Part shown: piece by piece, positions 6,874 to 12,322 of the stretch
How positions within the stretch are numbered: position 1 is the stretch's first letter
How the letters are laid out: the number at the start of each line of letters is the position of its first letter
NCBI GenBank assembly: GCA_913009915.1
Contig: CAJVYZ010000022.1
Span: 1 to 12,322, forward strand
Source: an uncultured Gemmatimonadota bacterium
GTDB lineage: Bacteria; Gemmatimonadota; Gemmatimonadetes; Gemmatimonadales; GWC2-71-9
Direction: 5' to 3'
DNA length: 12,322 nucleotides
Program-made: the position numbers and the translations under genes
The notes under the pieces: generated by a model
Told to the model about the DNA's origin: nothing
The model's input: the letters and a program-made list of their open reading frames with translations, nothing else
Database searches by the model: none

Positions 6874-7472
6874 TGGCCGAGCGGAGTTTGGTCCGACCGG
6901 AGTTTCTAGACCTGTTGCACGGGCACATGGCCGATGCCGAACCCACGGTGGTAGACGACCCTGCTCTGGCCCAGGCGGCTGTAGCCTTGGTCGTGGCCCC
7001 GGATCCCCTCTCGATACTGTTCATCCGCCGGGCCATCAGGGCCGCCGATCCCTGGTCGGGCCAGATGGCCCTCCCCGGAGGACGGGCGTCGGCGGGTGAC
7101 GCCGATCTCAAGGAAACCGCCATGAGGGAAACCCAGGAAGAGGTGGCCATCGCCCTGGGTGACGGCCGGTACCTCGGTCAACTCGACGACGTCGCTCCCC
7201 GTACCCCCGACCTCCCGCCACTCATGGTCCGGCCCTTCGTGTTCGTCCTCCCTCGGCGGGTCAGTCCCCGGCCCTGCTGCCAGGAGGTGGAGGAGGCGCT
7301 CTGGCTGCCGGTAGCCGACTTCGTGAGGCCTGGGGTGTACCGGGCAGTATCGCTGACCTTCAAGGGCGCCATCCGGGTCTTTCCGGGATACCGGGTGGGA
7401 TCCGATACCGTCTGGGGAATGACCGAGAGAATCATCACACCTCTGTTCCGCTCTCTGAACCTTATTCCCTGA
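6870..7472 (+). CDS. Nudix hydrolase, NudL/CoA pyrophosphatase-like
   Basis: Nudix (nucleoside diphosphate-X) hydrolase of about 200 residues. The Nudix box runs through PGGRASAGDADLKETAMRE and TQEEVAI: Gly-Gly, an Asp where the general box has Glu, and RExxEE for metal binding. Asp at that position and the preceding FIRRAIRAADPWSGQMALPGG resemble the CoA-pyrophosphatase (NudL/YeaB) branch, which hydrolyses CoA and its thioesters. The close variant DPWSGxxALPGG is common among uncharacterised members, so the substrate is not certain. The C-terminal part (SLTFKGAIRVFPGYRVG to VWGMTERII) also fits this branch. The ATG at 6870 overlaps the hydrolase TGA (ATGA) and a second ATG follows directly, so translation is coupled. 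It is the last gene of this plus-strand group, 148 bases before the next operon. Confidence 0.85.
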   Translation: MMAERSLVRPEFLDLLHGHMADAEPTVVDDPALAQAAVALVVAPDPLSILFIRRAIRAADPWSGQMALPGGRASAGDADLKETAMRETQEEVAIALGDGRYLGQLDDVAPRTPDLPPLMVRPFVFVLPRRVSPRPCCQEVEEALWLPVADFVRPGVYRAVSLTFKGAIRVFPGYRVGSDTVWGMTERIITPLFRSLNLIP

Positions 7473-7525
7473 CCTTCTTTCGCTGTAACTCATTTATTGA
7501 CAACTGATTGACTAAGGCGGCGAGG

Positions 7526-7545
7526 GATTTCGCTCACCCGAAATC
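7526..7545. other. Perfect inverted repeat in the dtxR upstream region
   Basis: GATTTCG (7526-7532) and CGAAATC (7539-7545) form a perfect seven-base stem with a six-base loop, 54 bases after the Nudix stop. No T-run follows on either side, so it is a poor intrinsic terminator. It may be a factor-assisted 3' hairpin for the Nudix gene or a protein-binding palindrome for the next operon. Confidence 0.45.
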
Positions 7546-7584
7546 AAAGAGTGGTGTGCTGTAAATTTGCAATTGGTCATGACG

Positions 7585-7608
7585 TATAGTAAAATTAGGC
7601 AACCCTAA
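7585..7608 (+). promoter_or_regulatory. Operon promoter -10 box with DtxR/MntR-type operator
   Basis: TATAGT (7585-7590) matches five of six bases of the -10 consensus; no good -35 is seen at the right distance. Four bases downstream lies TTAGG-N4-CCTAA (7595-7608), a perfect palindrome with AT-rich flanks of the type bound by DtxR/IdeR/MntR-family repressors. It covers the expected transcription start near 7597, the place where a metal-loaded repressor would block transcription. The first gene behind it encodes such a repressor, so autoregulation is likely. The leader would be only about 24 bases. Confidence 0.65.
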
Positions 7609-7620
7609 ATATGGCAGCCC

Positions 7621-8307
7621 ATGACCGCTCCTACCGCCGATGAACTGACCACGTCCGTCGAGGACTACCTCAAGGCCATCTACGCCATCACCCGGCAGGG
7701 CCACCCGGCCTCCACCAGCGACATTGCCGGCTGGCTGGGTCTCTCAGCGCCATCGGTGAGCGGCATGGTCAAGCGCCTGGCAGGGCAGGGGCTGCTGGAG
7801 CACCGGCCTTACAAAGGCGTCGAACTGACGGCCAAGGGCCGGCGTGGTGCCCTCACCGTCCTCCGGCGCCACCGGATCATCGAATCGTACCTGGTGGAGC
7901 GGCTGGGCTACAGTTGGGACTCGGTCCACCAAGAGGCCGAACGGTTGGAACACGCCGTTTCGGAAGTGCTGATCGAACGCATGGCCGACGCCCTCGGTAA
8001 CCCCGAGTTCGATCCCCACGGCGATCCGATCCCCCGACCCGATGGCTCCATGGCGGAGGCAACGTCCACCCCCATGCCCGACATCGCCGTGGGCCAGGAA
8101 GGAGTGCTGCGTCAGGTTCGCAGCAATGATGCCGAGCAGCTCCGGTTCATTGCCTCCGTGGGTCTCAAACCGGGCGCGGTCTTCACCGTCCTCGGTCAGC
8201 AGCCGTTCCACGGTCCGACCACCATTCGTCTGGGCGATACCGAACAGGTGATCGGCCATCAGATCGCTTCTCTCCTTTGGTGCGAAGTGCCCGGGGAGCA
8301 AGGATGA
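7621..8307 (+). CDS. DtxR/MntR-family metal-dependent repressor
   Basis: Soluble metalloregulator of 228 residues in three parts: winged helix (about 10-75, SDIAGWLGLSAPSVSGMVKRL as recognition region), dimerisation/metal domain (about 80-135), and a FeoA/SH3-like C-terminal domain (about 155-225). Ligand positions can be read against DtxR: His84, Glu88, His103, Glu107, Glu110 and His111 are all present. Where DtxR has Met10 and Cys102, this protein has Asp15 and Glu107, as in MntR (Asp8, Glu99). This favours Mn(II)-type coordination, but iron-responsive relatives with Glu also exist, so the metal is open. DPHGDPIP after the metal domain is typical of the family. It sits directly behind the TTAGG-N4-CCTAA operator and its stop overlaps the next ATG (ATGA, 8304-8307), so it is the first cistron of the redox/Feo operon. 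Confidence 0.92.
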   Translation: MTAPTADELTTSVEDYLKAIYAITRQGHPASTSDIAGWLGLSAPSVSGMVKRLAGQGLLEHRPYKGVELTAKGRRGALTVLRRHRIIESYLVERLGYSWDSVHQEAERLEHAVSEVLIERMADALGNPEFDPHGDPIPRPDGSMAEATSTPMPDIAVGQEGVLRQVRSNDAEQLRFIASVGLKPGAVFTVLGQQPFHGPTTIRLGDTEQVIGHQIASLLWCEVPGEQG

Positions 8308-9512
8308 CCGTGCGATTCGTTCTGACGGCCTTCTCGGCGGTCTTGATGCTGGCAGCGTGCGGTGAAATCGGAACCGAGGCACCGGCTGATGGAGAGACGT
8401 TGGATGCACCGCTCCCCGGACTGACGCCCGAGGAGCTCGCCGCCTTCCTGAAGGGCGACGAACAGTTCGGCTTCGCCTTCTCACCAGTGCTTGGTCTGGG
8501 GCCCATTTTCAACAACGTTTCCTGCGCCTCGTGCCACAGCGGCGACGGCCGCGGCCGGCCTGAGAACGCTCTGACCCGGTTCAGCCGCAGCGCCACCGAT
8601 CCGGCGCTCGACATCGGCGGCCCCCAACTACAGGACAAGGCGCTTCCGGGCGCCACGCCCGAGACGCTGCTCGCCGGCGTGCTGACCTCGTTGCGCCTGC
8701 CGCCGCCGGTGTTCGGCACCGGCTTGATAGGGGCCATTCCCGCGGCCAGCATCCTGGCCAACGCCGATCCCAACGATCAGGACGGCGACGGCATCTCCGG
8801 CAGGGCCAACATGGTGGTGCCGGCGGCGTTCGTGCCGCTCGACGAACCCGGCGGCGGTTCGGGGCCGCAGTTGGGACGGTTCAGCCGCAAGGCTCAGGTA
8901 ACCAGCCTGCTGCAACAGATCACCGAGGCGTATCACCAGGACATGGGCGTTACTTCCGACTTTCTCCCGGTGGAGAACGTAAATCCCCAAGTCGGCACTC
9001 CCACCGAAACCGCCGACCTGGCAGTGGACCCCGAACTCCCCCTGGCCGACTTGCGAGCCGTGGTCCACTACGTCCGGCTGCTGGCCCCGCCGGCACCGGG
9101 GCAGGACACGCCGCAGAGGCAACTGGGCGAGGATCTATTCGCTCAAATCGGCTGCGCCCGATGCCATATCCCCGTCATGCAAACCGGCTCGAACATCATC
9201 CAAGCCCTGGCTTTCAAACCGGTACCGCTGTACTCCGATCTGCTGCTCCACGACATGGGAGACGCCCTGGCCGACAACCGGCCCGATGGCCAGGCAACCG
9301 GTCGGGAATGGAAGACAACACCGTTGTGGGGGTTGCGCCTGATACGGCAGTTTCTCAACGGCCAGGCGTTCCTGCTTCACGACGGAAGTGCTGGCTCCGT
9401 GGAGGAGGCCATAATCAGGCACGGTGGCGAGGCCCAAGTTGCCCGGGACGCCTTCGTGAATCTTTCCGCGGACGACCGGGCCGCCCTGCTCGATTTCGTA
9501 GAGTCGCGATGA
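8304..9512 (+). CDS. Di-haem c-type cytochrome lipoprotein (DUF1111/COG3488)
   Basis: Exported di-haem oxidoreductase of 402 residues. The N-terminus is a lipoprotein signal ending in the lipobox LAAC (Cys19). Two haem-c sites are present, CASCH (74-78) and CARCH (284-288). Other family landmarks are DPNDQDGDGISGRAN (155-169), LLLHDMGDAL (313-322), WKTTPLWGL (336-344) and FLLHDGSAGSVEEAIIRHGG (356-375), which place it in the DUF1111 di-haem group distantly related to bacterial cytochrome c peroxidases and MauG. The family's reaction is not firmly known; homologues are often found near iron-regulated envelope genes. A good ribosome site (GGGGAG) precedes the ATG, which overlaps the repressor stop; the next gene overlaps in the same way. 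I infer a lipid-anchored periplasmic electron carrier or peroxidase that works with the Rieske protein and barrel encoded next. Confidence 0.9.
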   Translation: MTVRFVLTAFSAVLMLAACGEIGTEAPADGETLDAPLPGLTPEELAAFLKGDEQFGFAFSPVLGLGPIFNNVSCASCHSGDGRGRPENALTRFSRSATDPALDIGGPQLQDKALPGATPETLLAGVLTSLRLPPPVFGTGLIGAIPAASILANADPNDQDGDGISGRANMVVPAAFVPLDEPGGGSGPQLGRFSRKAQVTSLLQQITEAYHQDMGVTSDFLPVENVNPQVGTPTETADLAVDPELPLADLRAVVHYVRLLAPPAPGQDTPQRQLGEDLFAQIGCARCHIPVMQTGSNIIQALAFKPVPLYSDLLLHDMGDALADNRPDGQATGREWKTTPLWGLRLIRQFLNGQAFLLHDGSAGSVEEAIIRHGGEAQVARDAFVNLSADDRAALLDFVESR

Positions 9513-9931
9513 ACCGTCGGGCCTTCGTCGAAGTGTCTCTCACGGCGCTCGGCTCCGCCGCGATCGGTGGCTGCGCGTCGCTCCAAACCGTGCCCGTGAC
9601 TCCCGAACGCGGCCGGGCGCGGATCGTGGTGCGCAACCATCCATCGCTCGATCGGCAGGGCGGATCACTCAAGGTGCTTCCCGACGGATGGACCGTCCCG
9701 CTTTATGTCCTGGCCGTCCCGGGGGGCTACGTGGTGGTCAGCCCTATCTGTACCCATCAGGGGTGCACCGTCGGCATCGAAGGCAGCCACTTGGTGTGTC
9801 CCTGTCACGGCTCGACCTACACGCGGGACGGGGCCGTTGTCCGGGGCCCCGCCGAGGAACCGTTGAGGCGGTTTCCGTCGACTCTCCACGGTGACGGTGT
9901 GCTGGAGATCGATCTGGCGGGTGCGGTGTGA
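9509..9931 (+). CDS. Tat-exported Rieske [2Fe-2S] protein
   Basis: Small Rieske iron-sulphur protein of 140 residues. Cluster ligands are Cys81 and His83 in CTHQGC and Cys97 and His100 in CPCHGS. Cys86 and Cys99 provide the disulphide seen in high-potential Rieske proteins of bc-type complexes. The N-terminus has a twin-arginine motif (NRRAFV), as expected for a folded Fe-S protein. It also has a possible lipobox IGGC (Cys22), so the protein may be anchored to a membrane after export. There is no oxygenase domain and no cytochrome b in the window, so this is a stand-alone electron carrier rather than part of a bc1 complex. It overlaps the cytochrome gene at ATGA (9509-9512) and the next gene at GTGA (9928-9931). 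Electron exchange with the di-haem protein is a reasonable inference. Confidence 0.93.
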   Translation: MNRRAFVEVSLTALGSAAIGGCASLQTVPVTPERGRARIVVRNHPSLDRQGGSLKVLPDGWTVPLYVLAVPGGYVVVSPICTHQGCTVGIEGSHLVCPCHGSTYTRDGAVVRGPAEEPLRRFPSTLHGDGVLEIDLAGAV

Positions 9932-11103
9932 GCGGCGTTTCCCGGATAGTCGCGACCGGCTTCGTCTTCCTCGGTGGTTGGGCAACGACCCTCCAGTCGC
10001 AGGAGGACACCACCGAAGTAGACCGGCCCATGGTACGGGGCGACATGTACGACAAGCCATACTTGGCGCAGCTGGCCGGCCGGACCGCCGTGGGCGGCTA
10101 CGTCGAGTTTCACGCCCGGTACGCCAGGGTGGATGGCGTCAAGGAAGAGTTCACCTTTCTGGCCAAACGCTTCAACCTGTTCTTCGCCAGCCAGATAAGC
10201 GACTTCATCCGCTTTGCCGCGGAACTGGAGTTCGAAGACGCCGCCGAAGAGATCAACCTCGAGTTCGCCGCCGTCGATTTTCTGATCGCTCGCGCGCTCG
10301 CCTTCCGGGCCGGGGTGATCCTCGTGCCACTCGGTAAATTCAATCTGTCGCACGACAGCCCTTTGAACGAGTTCACCGACCGGCCGCTGGTGTCGACGCG
10401 GGTATTCGGCGTTACCGTGTGGGAGCCGGGGATCGGGGCGCTCGGCATTTTCCCGGTAGGGTCGGCGGGACGGATCACCTATCAGATCTATGCGGTCAAT
10501 GGATTCGACGACGGTCTCATCACCGAATCCGACGGCACCCGAATCCCCGAAGGCCGTCGCAACTTCGAGGACAACAACAACTCTCCATCGCTCGTCGGCC
10601 GAGTGGCGTGGAGTCCCCGCATCGGCATCGAGTTGGGGGCCTCGTTACACACGGGTCCCTACAACGTGTTCCAGCAGGACGGGCAGGAGATAGATCAGAA
10701 GCGCAACCTGACCATCTGGGTGGTCGACTTCGAGGCCGACTTCCGGGGTATCAGATGGGAGGGTGAAGGCGGGCAGGCCAATATCGATGTGCCCGCTAGC
10801 CTCCTGGGGATCTACGCCGAGCGGCAACAGGGCTTCTATTTCCAGGGCATGTGGGACTTCGGGCGCCAGTGGATTCGCACCATGCCCAAGTCGTTCTTCT
10901 CCGCGGGCGCCCGGGTGGACGTCCTCGATCTCGATGCCGATATCTCGGGAGACAACGTCAAGCAGATCTCGCTGGGGTTCAATTTCCGCCCCACGGGCGA
11001 GACCGTCTTCAAATTCAACTACGTTCGCGGTCGGGCCAGGGACCGGTTCAACAACCCCAGTGACTTCGCGGATTTCTTGTTTTCAGTCGCCACCTATTTC
11101 TAG
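9928..11103 (+). CDS. Outer-membrane porin-like beta-barrel protein
   Basis: Outer-membrane protein of 391 residues, reminiscent of phosphate-selective-porin (OprO/OprP)-like barrels. A Sec signal peptide covers about residues 1-25 (hydrophobic IVATGFVFLGGWATTLQSQ). The rest alternates polar and apolar residues in short strands (GGYVEFHARYARV, RFAAELEFEDA, ISLGFNFRP, FKFNYVRGRARD) and ends FLFSVATYF, with the C-terminal Phe used by the barrel assembly machinery. The start is the GTG at 9928-9930, which overlaps the Rieske stop as GTGA; no other start fits as well. It ends 10 bases before the membrane-anchored regulator. In this setting it could be a channel for iron or a scaffold for the cytochrome, but the substrate cannot be read from the sequence. 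Confidence 0.82.
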   Translation: MSGVSRIVATGFVFLGGWATTLQSQEDTTEVDRPMVRGDMYDKPYLAQLAGRTAVGGYVEFHARYARVDGVKEEFTFLAKRFNLFFASQISDFIRFAAELEFEDAAEEINLEFAAVDFLIARALAFRAGVILVPLGKFNLSHDSPLNEFTDRPLVSTRVFGVTVWEPGIGALGIFPVGSAGRITYQIYAVNGFDDGLITESDGTRIPEGRRNFEDNNNSPSLVGRVAWSPRIGIELGASLHTGPYNVFQQDGQEIDQKRNLTIWVVDFEADFRGIRWEGEGGQANIDVPASLLGIYAERQQGFYFQGMWDFGRQWIRTMPKSFFSAGARVDVLDLDADISGDNVKQISLGFNFRPTGETVFKFNYVRGRARDRFNNPSDFADFLFSVATYF

Positions 11104-11113
11104 TCCGGATCCC

Positions 11114-12160
11114 ATGACTGACCCAGCCCTCAATCTGATCGTCTTCGCACTCATCGTCGCAGTACTGGCAATCCTCTTCTGGCCCAAACGCGGACTGGTC
11201 GCCCTGGTCGCCGGTCATCTCCGTGTGACCGACCGCGTGCGCATGGAAGACGCCCTCAAACACTTGTACAAGGCCCAGAGCTCCGGCCGAATCGGCTCCC
11301 TCGAAAGCCTCGCGGGCGCTCTCGGCGTCCCCCGCTCAAAGGCCGTGCGGTTGGTGGCCAAGCTCGAATCTTCCGGCTTGATGCAGACCACCGACCGGGG
11401 CCTGTTGCTGAGTGCCGACGGACGGGCGTACGCCCTGCGGATCGTGCGGTCGCATCGGTTGTGGGAGCGATTCCTGGCCGACCGGACCGGCTTGACCCCG
11501 GTCGAGTGGCACGAGGAAGCCGAGCGCCAGGAACACACGCTGAGCCCCGAGCAGGCCGAGGATCTCTCCGCCCGGATGGGACACCCGCGCTACGATCCGC
11601 ACGGCGATCCGATACCCACCGACCGGTTGGAGTTGCCCCCCGCAGCCGGCGTTGCCCTGACGGCGCTGGTGCCGGGCCAAGCCGGCCGGATCATTCACCT
11701 AGAGGACGAACCGCGGGAAATTTACCAGCACCTCGTCGACCAAGGCCTGGCGCCCAACATGGAAATCCTCGTCCTCAACACCGGGCCCGATCGCATCAGC
11801 TTTCGCGGCGAGGGGCGGGACCACGACCTGGAACCCATCGAGGCGGCCAACATCACCGTAGTGCTACTCGCCGTGCCCGATCCAGCCGCGGTGGACACGG
11901 TACAGCACACTTTGGCCGAAGCCGAACCGGGCCAGTCGGTGACGGTCGTGGGCATATCCCCCGTGTGCCAGGGTCGGCAGCGCCGTCGCCTTCTCGACCT
12001 CGGCGTCGTGGTCGGCACCACCATTCAAGCCGAGTTCCGGAGCGCAACCGGTGACCCGGTGGCCTATCGCATTCGAGGTGCGCTGATCGCCCTCCGCAGG
12101 CAGCAGGCCGAGTGGATCCTGGTGGAGCCGGCGGCTGCGGCAAGTGAGGGCGCCGCGTGA
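11114..12160 (+). CDS. Membrane-anchored DtxR-family regulator fused to two FeoA domains
   Basis: Unusual 348-residue fusion. An N-terminal membrane helix (about 6-24, LNLIVFALIVAVLAILFWP) is followed by basic residues, placing the rest in the cytoplasm. Next come a DtxR-like helix-turn-helix (about 40-105) and a dimerisation/metal domain whose ligand positions are kept: Asp46, His114, Glu118, His133, Glu137, Glu140 and His141, then DPHGDPIP. Two FeoA/SH3 domains follow: about 179-252 (HLVDQGLAPNMEILVL) and 274-337 (RRRLLDLGVVVGTTIQ). FeoA normally docks on the ferrous transporter FeoB, so this protein may sense metal and touch both DNA and the transporter. ATG 11114 lies 10 bases after the barrel gene and keeps the membrane helix; an internal ATG (residue 44) would remove it. 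The stop overlaps a GTG that probably begins feoB. Whether it still binds DNA is unknown. Confidence 0.88.
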   Translation: MTDPALNLIVFALIVAVLAILFWPKRGLVALVAGHLRVTDRVRMEDALKHLYKAQSSGRIGSLESLAGALGVPRSKAVRLVAKLESSGLMQTTDRGLLLSADGRAYALRIVRSHRLWERFLADRTGLTPVEWHEEAERQEHTLSPEQAEDLSARMGHPRYDPHGDPIPTDRLELPPAAGVALTALVPGQAGRIIHLEDEPREIYQHLVDQGLAPNMEILVLNTGPDRISFRGEGRDHDLEPIEAANITVVLLAVPDPAAVDTVQHTLAEAEPGQSVTVVGISPVCQGRQRRRLLDLGVVVGTTIQAEFRSATGDPVAYRIRGALIALRRQQAEWILVEPAAAASEGAA

Positions 12161-12190
12161 CCAAAATCATGCCCGCTCCCTGCCATGGTT
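12157..12190 (+). CDS. Start of a truncated gene, probably feoB
   Basis: A GTG overlaps the stop of the regulator/FeoA fusion (GTGA, 12157-12160) and opens a frame of 11 codons, MTKIMPAPCHG, before the P5 adapter begins. That is too short to identify by homology. I infer FeoB (ferrous iron transporter GTPase) because the gene before it ends in FeoA domains, the 4-base overlap follows the pattern of this operon, and many FeoB proteins carry a short Cys/His-containing lead before the G1 motif. An ATG at 12169 is an alternative start. Confidence 0.35.
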
Positions 12191-12248
12191 AGATCGGAAG
12201 AGCGTCGTGTAGGGAAAGAGTGTAGATCTCGGTGGTCGCCGTATCATT
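12191..12248 (+). other. Illumina P5-side adapter, reverse complement (artefact)
   Basis: From AGATCGGAAGAGCGTCGTGT at 12191 to GTATCATT at 12248 this matches, base for base, the reverse complement of the 58-base Illumina universal (P5) adapter. It is library sequence, not genome. Confidence 0.98.
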
Positions 12249-12322
12249 AAAAAAAAAAACGAAAAGAAAAGAAAAAAAAAAAGAAGAAAAATGACACACA
12301 ACAGTGACGTACGATACAGTGG
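12249..12322 (+). other. Non-genomic tail after the adapter
   Basis: An A-rich stretch (12249-12291) with scattered G and C, then about 30 bases of low-complexity mixed sequence. This is what base calling gives after a read runs off the end of its library molecule. It should not be searched for genes. Confidence 0.9.

Follow-up and report, generated by a model that had tools for sequence, protein, structure and literature searches.

A conserved gene set of di-haem protein, Rieske protein and outer-membrane barrel linked to predicted metal control in Gemmatimonadota

In an uncultured Gemmatimonadota bacterium, we found that a DHOR (DUF1111) di-haem lipoprotein, a Rieske lipoprotein and an outer-membrane barrel are encoded together in a conserved gene set, and its tie to metal control, as judged by sequence comparison, is well supported. 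We regard it as just about probable that this trio forms the outer-envelope part of a DtxR/MntR-repressed acquisition system for divalent metal (Mn and/or Fe(II)). The features are numbered within the window, which is the whole 12,322-nucleotide stretch of DNA that was analysed.

7566-7595, plus strand: sigma-70-like promoter from a consensus scan (TTTGCA or TTGCAA, spacer of 17-18 nt, TAAAAT)
7595-7608, plus strand: putative DtxR/MntR-type operator TTAGGCAACCCTAA, 12 bp 5' of the start codon
7621-12160, plus strand: five-gene operon, a tightly packed, metal-linked unit
7621-8307, plus strand: DtxR/MntR-family regulator with a C-terminal FeoA domain (Pfam Fe_dep_repress, Fe_dep_repr_C and FeoA)
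8304-9512, plus strand: DHOR (DUF1111) di-haem lipoprotein with two CxxCH motifs (Pfam DHOR, 6e-65)
9509-9931, plus strand: Rieske [2Fe-2S] protein with a Tat-type signal and an invariant lipobox Cys22 (Pfam, 2.6e-11; alignment A3)
9928-11103, plus strand: outer-membrane beta-barrel, a distant Porin_O_P/BBP2 relative with a GTG start and a C-terminal Phe
11114-12160, plus strand: membrane-anchored DtxR-FeoA-FeoA fusion (Pfam Fe_dep_repr_C and two FeoA)
12157-12190, plus strand: 5' end of feoB, truncated where the contig ends; a same-genus contig (L029) reads through
12191-12322, no strand: adapter and low-complexity tail, non-genomic, with an exact adapter core at 12191-12203

The five open reading frames are all in frame with a single terminal stop apiece, and run from the DtxR regulator through DHOR, Rieske and barrel genes to the DtxR-FeoA-FeoA fusion. 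Four-base overlaps join the genes at 8304 (ATGA), 9509 (ATGA), 9928 (GTGA) and 12157 (GTGA), with a gap of 10 bases between 11103 and 11114. The re-read frames and the Pfam matches thus agree with the gene order and junctions given in the first-pass annotation, which had also noted a new start codon at 12157. This codon belongs to feoB, since L029 continues there into a 739-residue FeoB beginning MTKIMPAPCHG, and a second contig of the same assembly (C92) begins at FeoB residue 302, 96% identical to and colinear with L029. In the own genome, PF02421 gave weak matches only, and the FeoB_C model then located the missing half on C92; FeoB is linked to FeoA here by both L029 and C92. The first ~61 bases of the window, like its end, are adapter or tail, with an exact adapter core at 49-61.

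Of 298 Gemmatimonadota genomes, 30 gave a score above 400 bits with a barrel profile, a choice by barrel that would miss barrel-less variants. The Rieske gene lies beside the barrel in 30/30 of these genomes and DHOR does so too in 29/30, the remaining contig ending first. The neighbourhood search set beforehand therefore found the gene set conserved, and tests of linkage, operator and tree led us to reject adjacency by chance. Beyond Gemmatimonadota, there are related sets in Eisenbacteria, Bacteroidota and Latescibacterota; each of the four phyla has barrel and DHOR, those of Latescibacterota being assigned by clustering, and two of the four have Rieske. Two Eisenbacteria loci (L051, L052) have the arrangement DHOR-barrel-DtxR-Nramp with no Rieske match, so that the Rieske protein appears dispensable to the module. 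Imelysin accompanies DHOR at eight Bacteroidota/Latescibacterota loci, and the Bacteroidota loci hold it together with DHOR, Rieske and barrel; a single tblastn query (1e-5) gave no imelysin match in the Gemmatimonadota module loci.

The operator adjoins TAAAAT, a -10-like hexamer, and the promoter scan of 7400-7700 returned 2 overlapping matches vs 0.4 expected in shuffles. TTAGGN4CCTAA has its sole copy in the assembled own genome at this operator. Of 36 Gemmatimonadota module loci, 29 have the shorter box TTAG-N6-CTAA 5' of the operon or of its partner operon, and the exact box is absent from the other 7. None of the eight DHOR paralogue loci fetched as a control has it; at one of these (L041) the contig ends behind DHOR and a module is possible. 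A DtxR-type operator before the operon, proposed earlier, is thus borne out as a prediction by the same box at related loci. No such box lies beside the module at the eight imelysin loci. Genome-wide, the box was rarer than its reversed control in 6/7 genomes and equal to it in 1/7. The full operator set was read in these seven genomes and part of the sites inspected; sites outside module loci include a DtxR promoter (L139) and a TonB receptor (L133), and those at L128, L130, L135 and L141 have no obvious metal gene.

The PDB relatives of the regulator include SloR, ScaR and IdeR. SloR and ScaR are manganese sensors, and Met/Cys ligands are those of DtxR/IdeR. In our alignment, the linked regulators have Asp/Glu ligands in place of Met/Cys, as in SloR and ScaR. 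The second ligand motif, readable in 17 of 19 scanned loci, contains Glu, except for one L039 copy with Asp, and Cys in no case. The N-terminal E-D motif was read in 13/19. Manganese is therefore at least as likely as iron to be the metal sensed, and the regulator presumably binds the TTAG-N6-CTAA box. The fusion protein may not bind DNA, because its DNA-binding domain reaches a score of 20.1, below the cut-off of 26.

The first-pass annotation took Feo uptake as the defining partner of these genes, and this did not hold. We looked for FeoB, Nramp and ZIP (the last by clustering), and in the 30 barrel genomes the importer adjoining the module is swapped: FeoB in 4, Nramp in 6 and a ZIP-like protein in 2, with none of the three seen in 18/30 within the fetched stretch, where some contigs are short. 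In L029, L030, L039 and L115, the fusion precedes FeoB. L110 and L049 have a ZIP-like protein as well as a multicopper oxidase, the latter within the same run of genes. The module is linked to divalent metal (Mn and/or Fe) and not to Feo as such, as the manganese-type ligands of the linked regulators also indicate.

Two CxxCH haem sites are present in 52/52 DHOR rows (alignment A2), and the structure model has the bCCP/MauG fold common to the di-haem cytochrome c peroxidase/MauG superfamily. Fold relatives include MauG, MacA and 6e1c, a MauG-like protein of copper homeostasis. Gln110 and Glu120, candidates for the distal Gln/Glu pair of the peroxidatic haem, occur together in 46/52 rows, ten apart as in the CCP profile, in a stretch outside the hhalign alignment; two of the six rows without the pair come from barrel-bearing loci (L059, L061). 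All 52 rows have His373 in the column of the Met that we take to be the axial haem ligand of classical peroxidases. The His/Met second haem of classical bacterial cytochrome c peroxidase is thus absent from these rows, and DHOR would be a non-standard peroxidase. Of the iron or manganese redox roles suggested earlier (reductase, ferroxidase or peroxidase), peroxidase would suit the modelled fold and the conserved candidate Gln/Glu pair better than ferric reductase.

High-potential Rieske proteins have both disulfide cysteines, and these are kept in 15/21 Rieske rows, including the window protein. The cytochrome bc1 and b6f Rieske subunits were considered and rejected, as those NCBIfam models match far under their cut-offs. 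The C-terminal Phe of the barrel recurs in 63/63 rows. The barrel has no Pfam match above cut-off, and the single protein matched no solved structure by sequence at E 10; its profile gave a single match to solved structures (E 0.8), which is unrelated and was discarded.

In the acquisition system that we propose, loss of metal by the DtxR/MntR-type repressor would switch the module on, and the barrel, as a presumed selective pore, would admit divalent metal through the outer membrane. Beside this port, the lipid-anchored DHOR might reduce hydrogen peroxide or handle metal redox, and this would keep the metal divalent and limit Fenton chemistry. The Tat-exported Rieske lipoprotein would be the usual, dispensable electron partner of DHOR; we infer this chemistry, the electron path and the peroxidase direction. 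The inner-membrane importer would be interchangeable, with FeoAB here and Nramp or ZIP elsewhere.

The likelihoods that we give to this reading and to its alternatives are not mutually exclusive. The trio might be an assimilatory metal reductase, in which Rieske and DHOR send electrons out and, near the barrel, turn Fe(III) or Mn(III/IV) into an importable divalent ion. The importers found beside the module belong to divalent-metal families, the second haem is predicted to be bis-His and of lower potential because His373 replaces Met, and the fold relative MacA is a cytochrome linked to metal reduction. We nevertheless hold this to be rather unlikely: the 15/21 Rieske rows that keep both disulfide cysteines, as high-potential proteins do, would be poor donors for Fe(III), though Mn(III/IV) might accept their electrons. 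We noticed no electron source of the cytoplasmic membrane next to the module, and the multicopper oxidase of L110 and L049 points to oxidation.

That oxidase and the ZIP-like protein would fit with an EfeB-like activity, in which DHOR uses peroxide to oxidise Fe(II) or Mn(II) in import or periplasmic metal buffering, as would the eight loci that pair DHOR with imelysin, clusters of a kind likened to EfeUOB in PMC3143127. Against it stands the order of events. FeoB and Nramp transport divalent ions, so oxidation before import runs counter to both, and we judge such an activity unlikely. A maturase like MauG or MbnH, modifying a partner (barrel or imelysin) and building its metal site, seems improbable: MauG and 6e1c are among the fold relatives, yet the axial residue of MauG is Tyr294, of which a Y294H mutant is a PDB entry, that of DHOR is His in 52/52 rows, and the partner set varies by locus. 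We give a similarly small chance to a module for electron transfer in stress or respiration that belongs to the metal regulon and takes no part in transport; the 18/30 genomes without an importer seen beside the module would suit it, but the barrel stands beside Rieske in 30/30 of the genomes chosen by barrel, and box and importer linkage recur independently.

Several known systems resemble the module. DUF1111-imelysin iron clusters, of which Leptospira has an operon of this type (PMC13066512), likewise include a DHOR-family di-haem protein among envelope genes that respond to iron, whereas the Gemmatimonadota module adds Rieske and barrel and its operator is a DtxR-type box. A literature search found no paper that combines DUF1111 with Rieske, and one that combines imelysin with Rieske. 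As in Feo uptake, the window encodes FeoA domains with FeoB following, although FeoB adjoins the module in only 4/30 genomes; we know of no envelope redox or pore genes in classical Feo. DHOR has the fold and two CxxCH of the cytochrome c peroxidase/MauG superfamily and a candidate for its Gln/Glu pair, with the spacing of ten, and differs in its invariant His373. Porin-cytochrome conduits (Mtr, Cyc2) also hold a barrel and redox lipoproteins in one operon; in contrast, DHOR has two haem motifs only, CxxCH occurs in 0/63 barrel rows, and the window barrel contains no cysteine. Neither a multihaem cytochrome threaded in the barrel nor a haem motif fused to it was seen. MnoP is the outer-membrane Mn channel of Bradyrhizobium, according to a review (PMC9334652). 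Like MnoP, the module barrel is an outer-membrane protein that may be tied to Mn uptake, with Nramp nearby in 6/30 genomes. No di-haem or Rieske partner of MnoP is known to us.

To our knowledge, little is known of the route that Fe(II) and Mn(II) take through the outer membrane, or of what maintains their right redox state ahead of FeoB, Nramp or ZIP. The persistence of the trio with varying iron and manganese importers suggests undescribed cell-surface handling of scarce metals. More tentatively, the module might be an undescribed envelope machine of at least four phyla, an outer-membrane divalent-metal port coupled to a redox chain of the lipid-anchored di-haem protein, usually with Rieske, which would let metal enter where the redox chemistry of metal (Fe or Mn) or peroxide takes place and plug into whichever inner-membrane importer is present. 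If so, the manganese-type regulators would be compatible with an assimilatory Mn(III/IV)-reducing port or a peroxide-guarded Mn/Fe import port; we know of no described case of either. The named gene set, the operator and the importer-swap pattern make the outer-membrane metal question directly testable. In Bacteroidota, where a link to Bizionia rests on gene names, PMC9478572 reports that Rieske and cytochrome c fall with imelysin in an iron-regulator mutant and reads them as respiratory-chain parts; they may instead be genes of the module type.

The first-pass annotation gave the five operon genes and their junctions correctly, and their domains were assigned as listed below.

7621-8307, plus strand: DtxR regulator with a FeoA domain
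8304-9512, plus strand: di-haem lipoprotein (DHOR), DUF1111 domain match
9509-9931, plus strand: Rieske protein, domain match
9928-11103, plus strand: outer-membrane barrel, no Pfam match above the cut-off
11114-12160, plus strand: Fe_dep_repr_C and two FeoA domains, with a hydrophobic stretch N-terminal to them

The operon observation was confirmed, and DHOR, Rieske and barrel (the trio, or module) form a stronger conserved unit than was visible from the sequence alone. When the barrel profile was searched against 298 genomes of the phylum, 68 matched at 1e-20 and 30 had a best match above 400 bits (lowest 402.8), although some profile rows derive from the same genomes and thus match by construction; the next match, at 306, was a second barrel inside one of those 30. 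A Rieske gene adjoins the barrel in all 30 genomes (our own read from the window), and DHOR is also adjacent in 29, although L092 and L116 stop partway through the DHOR gene at the edge of the contig; in the remaining one, G250, the contig ends before any DHOR. The DHOR search found the family in 24 of 61 genomes (our own and 60 relatives), as genes with Rieske and barrel behind them or as paralogues with neither.

A scan of named genomes returned 27 loci, four of which (L046, L047, L050, L055) repeat genomes already covered. L048 and L049 are additional Gemmatimonadota module loci, and L054 is cut within DHOR. Three Eisenbacteria loci (L051, L052, L053) carry DHOR and barrel with no Rieske match, and Bacteroidota L056 and L057 have DHOR-Rieske-barrel. 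The order is barrel-Rieske-imelysin-DHOR in five other Bacteroidota (L058, L060, L062, L063, L064; the L062 barrel from clustering alone) and barrel-imelysin-DHOR in Latescibacterota L059 and L061 (barrel assigned by clustering), while L069 has imelysin and DHOR only; the other seven loci gave neither a Rieske nor a barrel match. Three barrel relatives of about 600 aa (P0041, P0047, P0059) are listed with the methyltransferase-type Pfam domains PF04140 and PF04191, possible fusions.

Immediately next to a -10-like hexamer and 12 bp upstream of the start codon is the operator TTAGGCAACCCTAA (7595-7608), and the same 14-bp palindrome, TTAG-N6-CTAA, which we take to be part of the classical DtxR/IdeR box, stands upstream of other module loci. 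It occurs exactly 42 times in 50 loci (726,432 bases); in 35 loci (498,922 bases) there were 33 boxes, against 0, 1, 0, 0 and 1 in five first-order Markov simulations. Among 36 Gemmatimonadota module loci, the window counted, 29 carry the box in front of either the module or its partner operon; in 18 it stands immediately upstream of DHOR, even without a linked regulator (e.g., L035, L037, L108). The seven with no exact box are L032, L107 and L118, where one-mismatch sites are present, L105, L120, and the two with truncated DHOR, L116 and L092. Five loci have two exact boxes, paired before DHOR with starts 19-23 bp apart in L114, L117, L119 and L121, and placed one before Nramp and one before DHOR in L106. 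Elsewhere, Eisenbacteria L051 and L052 have box pairs 22 bp apart before DHOR, Flavobacteriales L057 has two boxes, one of them between its divergently oriented DtxR and DHOR genes, and the single box of L056 is distant from the module. Eight imelysin loci had no box beside the module (L059 has one downstream), and eight fetched DHOR paralogue loci of the same phylum, one (L041) cut behind DHOR, had none at all.

Genome-wide, the box and a reversed control pattern occurred 2 and 13 times in our own genome, 2 and 31 in G018, 1 and 19 in G009, 9 and 92 in G023, 2 and 25 in G308, 1 and 1 in G147, and 7 and 14 in G111. The box is therefore rare and not enriched, yet concentrated at module operons in most of these seven genomes. 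Its stricter form, TTAGG-N4-CCTAA, occurs once in our assembled genome, at the window operon, and nowhere in three others. Among the additional sites are ones at a DtxR promoter and at a TonB receptor; on contig C5 of G111, two boxes (L133, 1501-1538) precede a TonB-dependent receptor gene, a candidate further regulon member. In G023, contig C13 (L139) has the Abhydrolase-NUDIX-DtxR order of the window without the trio; there the trio is on a different contig and has a box of its own.

Our own genome is fragmented (completeness 76.5%), and adapter sequence occupies 1-61 and 12191-12322 of the window. Because the exact adapter core is found at both ends, the genomic part of the window stops at 12190, and ORFs extending into the adapter have false ends. 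The adapter cuts a large minus-strand gene at 62-2106, which has an NPPW motif and resembles a restriction-modification methylase; two small overlapping minus-strand genes at 2350-2983 resemble a BrnT/BrnA-type toxin-antitoxin pair. The sixth gene of the same-genus contig L029 encodes a 739-aa FeoB, whose N-terminus, MTKIMPAPCHG, is the same reading as the window's start at 12157. Our contig C92, also with adapter at its end, opens at FeoB residue 302 and is 96% identical to and colinear with L029, on which the window stops at 8937 and C92 begins at 9806; feoB is therefore the continuation of the operon, interrupted here by a gap in the assembly. The membrane-anchored DtxR-FeoA-FeoA protein precedes FeoB in all four loci with a wholly readable FeoB (L029, L030, L039, L115), and in several Feo loci at a distance from the module, PF02742 matches are found some 2.2 kb upstream of FeoB_C. 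Judged by this gene order, the protein is part of Feo in Gemmatimonadota rather than of the trio. In L030, a ZnuA-type binding protein lies behind FeoB.

The first-pass annotation had joined the trio to Feo iron uptake; a conserved unit tied to metal control stood, while Feo as its defining partner did not. In the stretches that were fetched around the 30 modules, FeoB was found in four (our own, G009, G018, G135), Nramp in six (G003, G044, G056, G147, G250, G308), a ZIP-like protein below the Pfam cut-off in two (G081, G240; spotted through clustering, so that further cases may have been missed), and no importer in 18. In 13 genomes spanning 11 genera, the module has a DtxR-family gene no more than 10 kb away, against 0.26 expected from 47 such genes across the 30. 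A tree of 57 DHOR proteins, in which 23 rows are labelled none, partly through short contigs, requires 4, 4 and 3 changes for the labels Feo, Nramp and ZIP; 3, 4 and 3 of these are forced by well-supported branches. The importer appears to have been swapped repeatedly around a constant envelope trio. Instead of belonging to Feo iron uptake, the trio should be read as an importer-independent module of the outer envelope that serves divalent metal under DtxR/MntR control. L110 runs DtxR, multicopper oxidase (Tat signal match slightly below cut-off), ZIP-like, DHOR, Rieske, barrel, as does L049 behind a short DtxR-like frame; the multicopper oxidase and ZIP-like genes together take up 1034-4011 in L110 and 6416-8825 in L049. 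L034 encodes, between DtxR and DHOR (8324-9496), a 390-aa protein that has a CxxCH near its N-terminus and matches no Pfam family; it may be a barrel that carries haem.

Manganese sensors are marked by Asp/Glu ligands and iron sensors by Met/Cys. Aligned to SloR and ScaR, the regulator shares the E-D-Y and A-E-x-x-E-H residues; among 19 scanned loci, the E-D motif was readable in 13 and the second ligand motif in 17, with Glu, or Asp in one copy, and never Cys. Since Nramp is also the commonest neighbouring importer found, manganese is at least as likely as iron.

For the chemistry, putative peroxide handling is favoured. In published work, DUF1111 adjoins imelysins in iron-uptake clusters compared to EfeUOB (PMC3143127); a Leptospira imelysin/di-haem operon is upregulated by an iron chelator, its di-haem gene being peroxide-induced in one of two species (PMC13066512); one DUF1111 protein is induced by peroxide and depends on RirA (PMC8007024); and a DUF1111 protein is listed among those changed by chromate (PMC2996968). 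Rieske, cytochrome c and imelysin transcripts show a joint fall in an iron-regulator mutant (PMC9478572), and outer-membrane proteins such as MnoP are able to carry Mn (PMC9334652). Our literature search found no paper treating DUF1111 together with Rieske.

In 21 Rieske rows, all four cluster ligands are invariant, as are Arg3 and Cys22, which fits the requirement of a Tat-exported lipoprotein. The disulfide cysteine pair is retained in 15 rows (all 14 Gemmatimonadota and L057) and absent from six, every one Bacteroidota; its loss lowers the potential. The window barrel matches Porin_O_P at E 0.0016, below the family cut-off, and at E 0.1 BBP2 matches 18 and Porin_O_P 17 of 63 barrel rows, none of which has CxxCH and all of which end in Phe. 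In the mature window barrel, Asp/Glu exceed Lys/Arg by 14, but selectivity is not to be read from this charge because it varies from 19 acidic to 7 basic across 25 rows.
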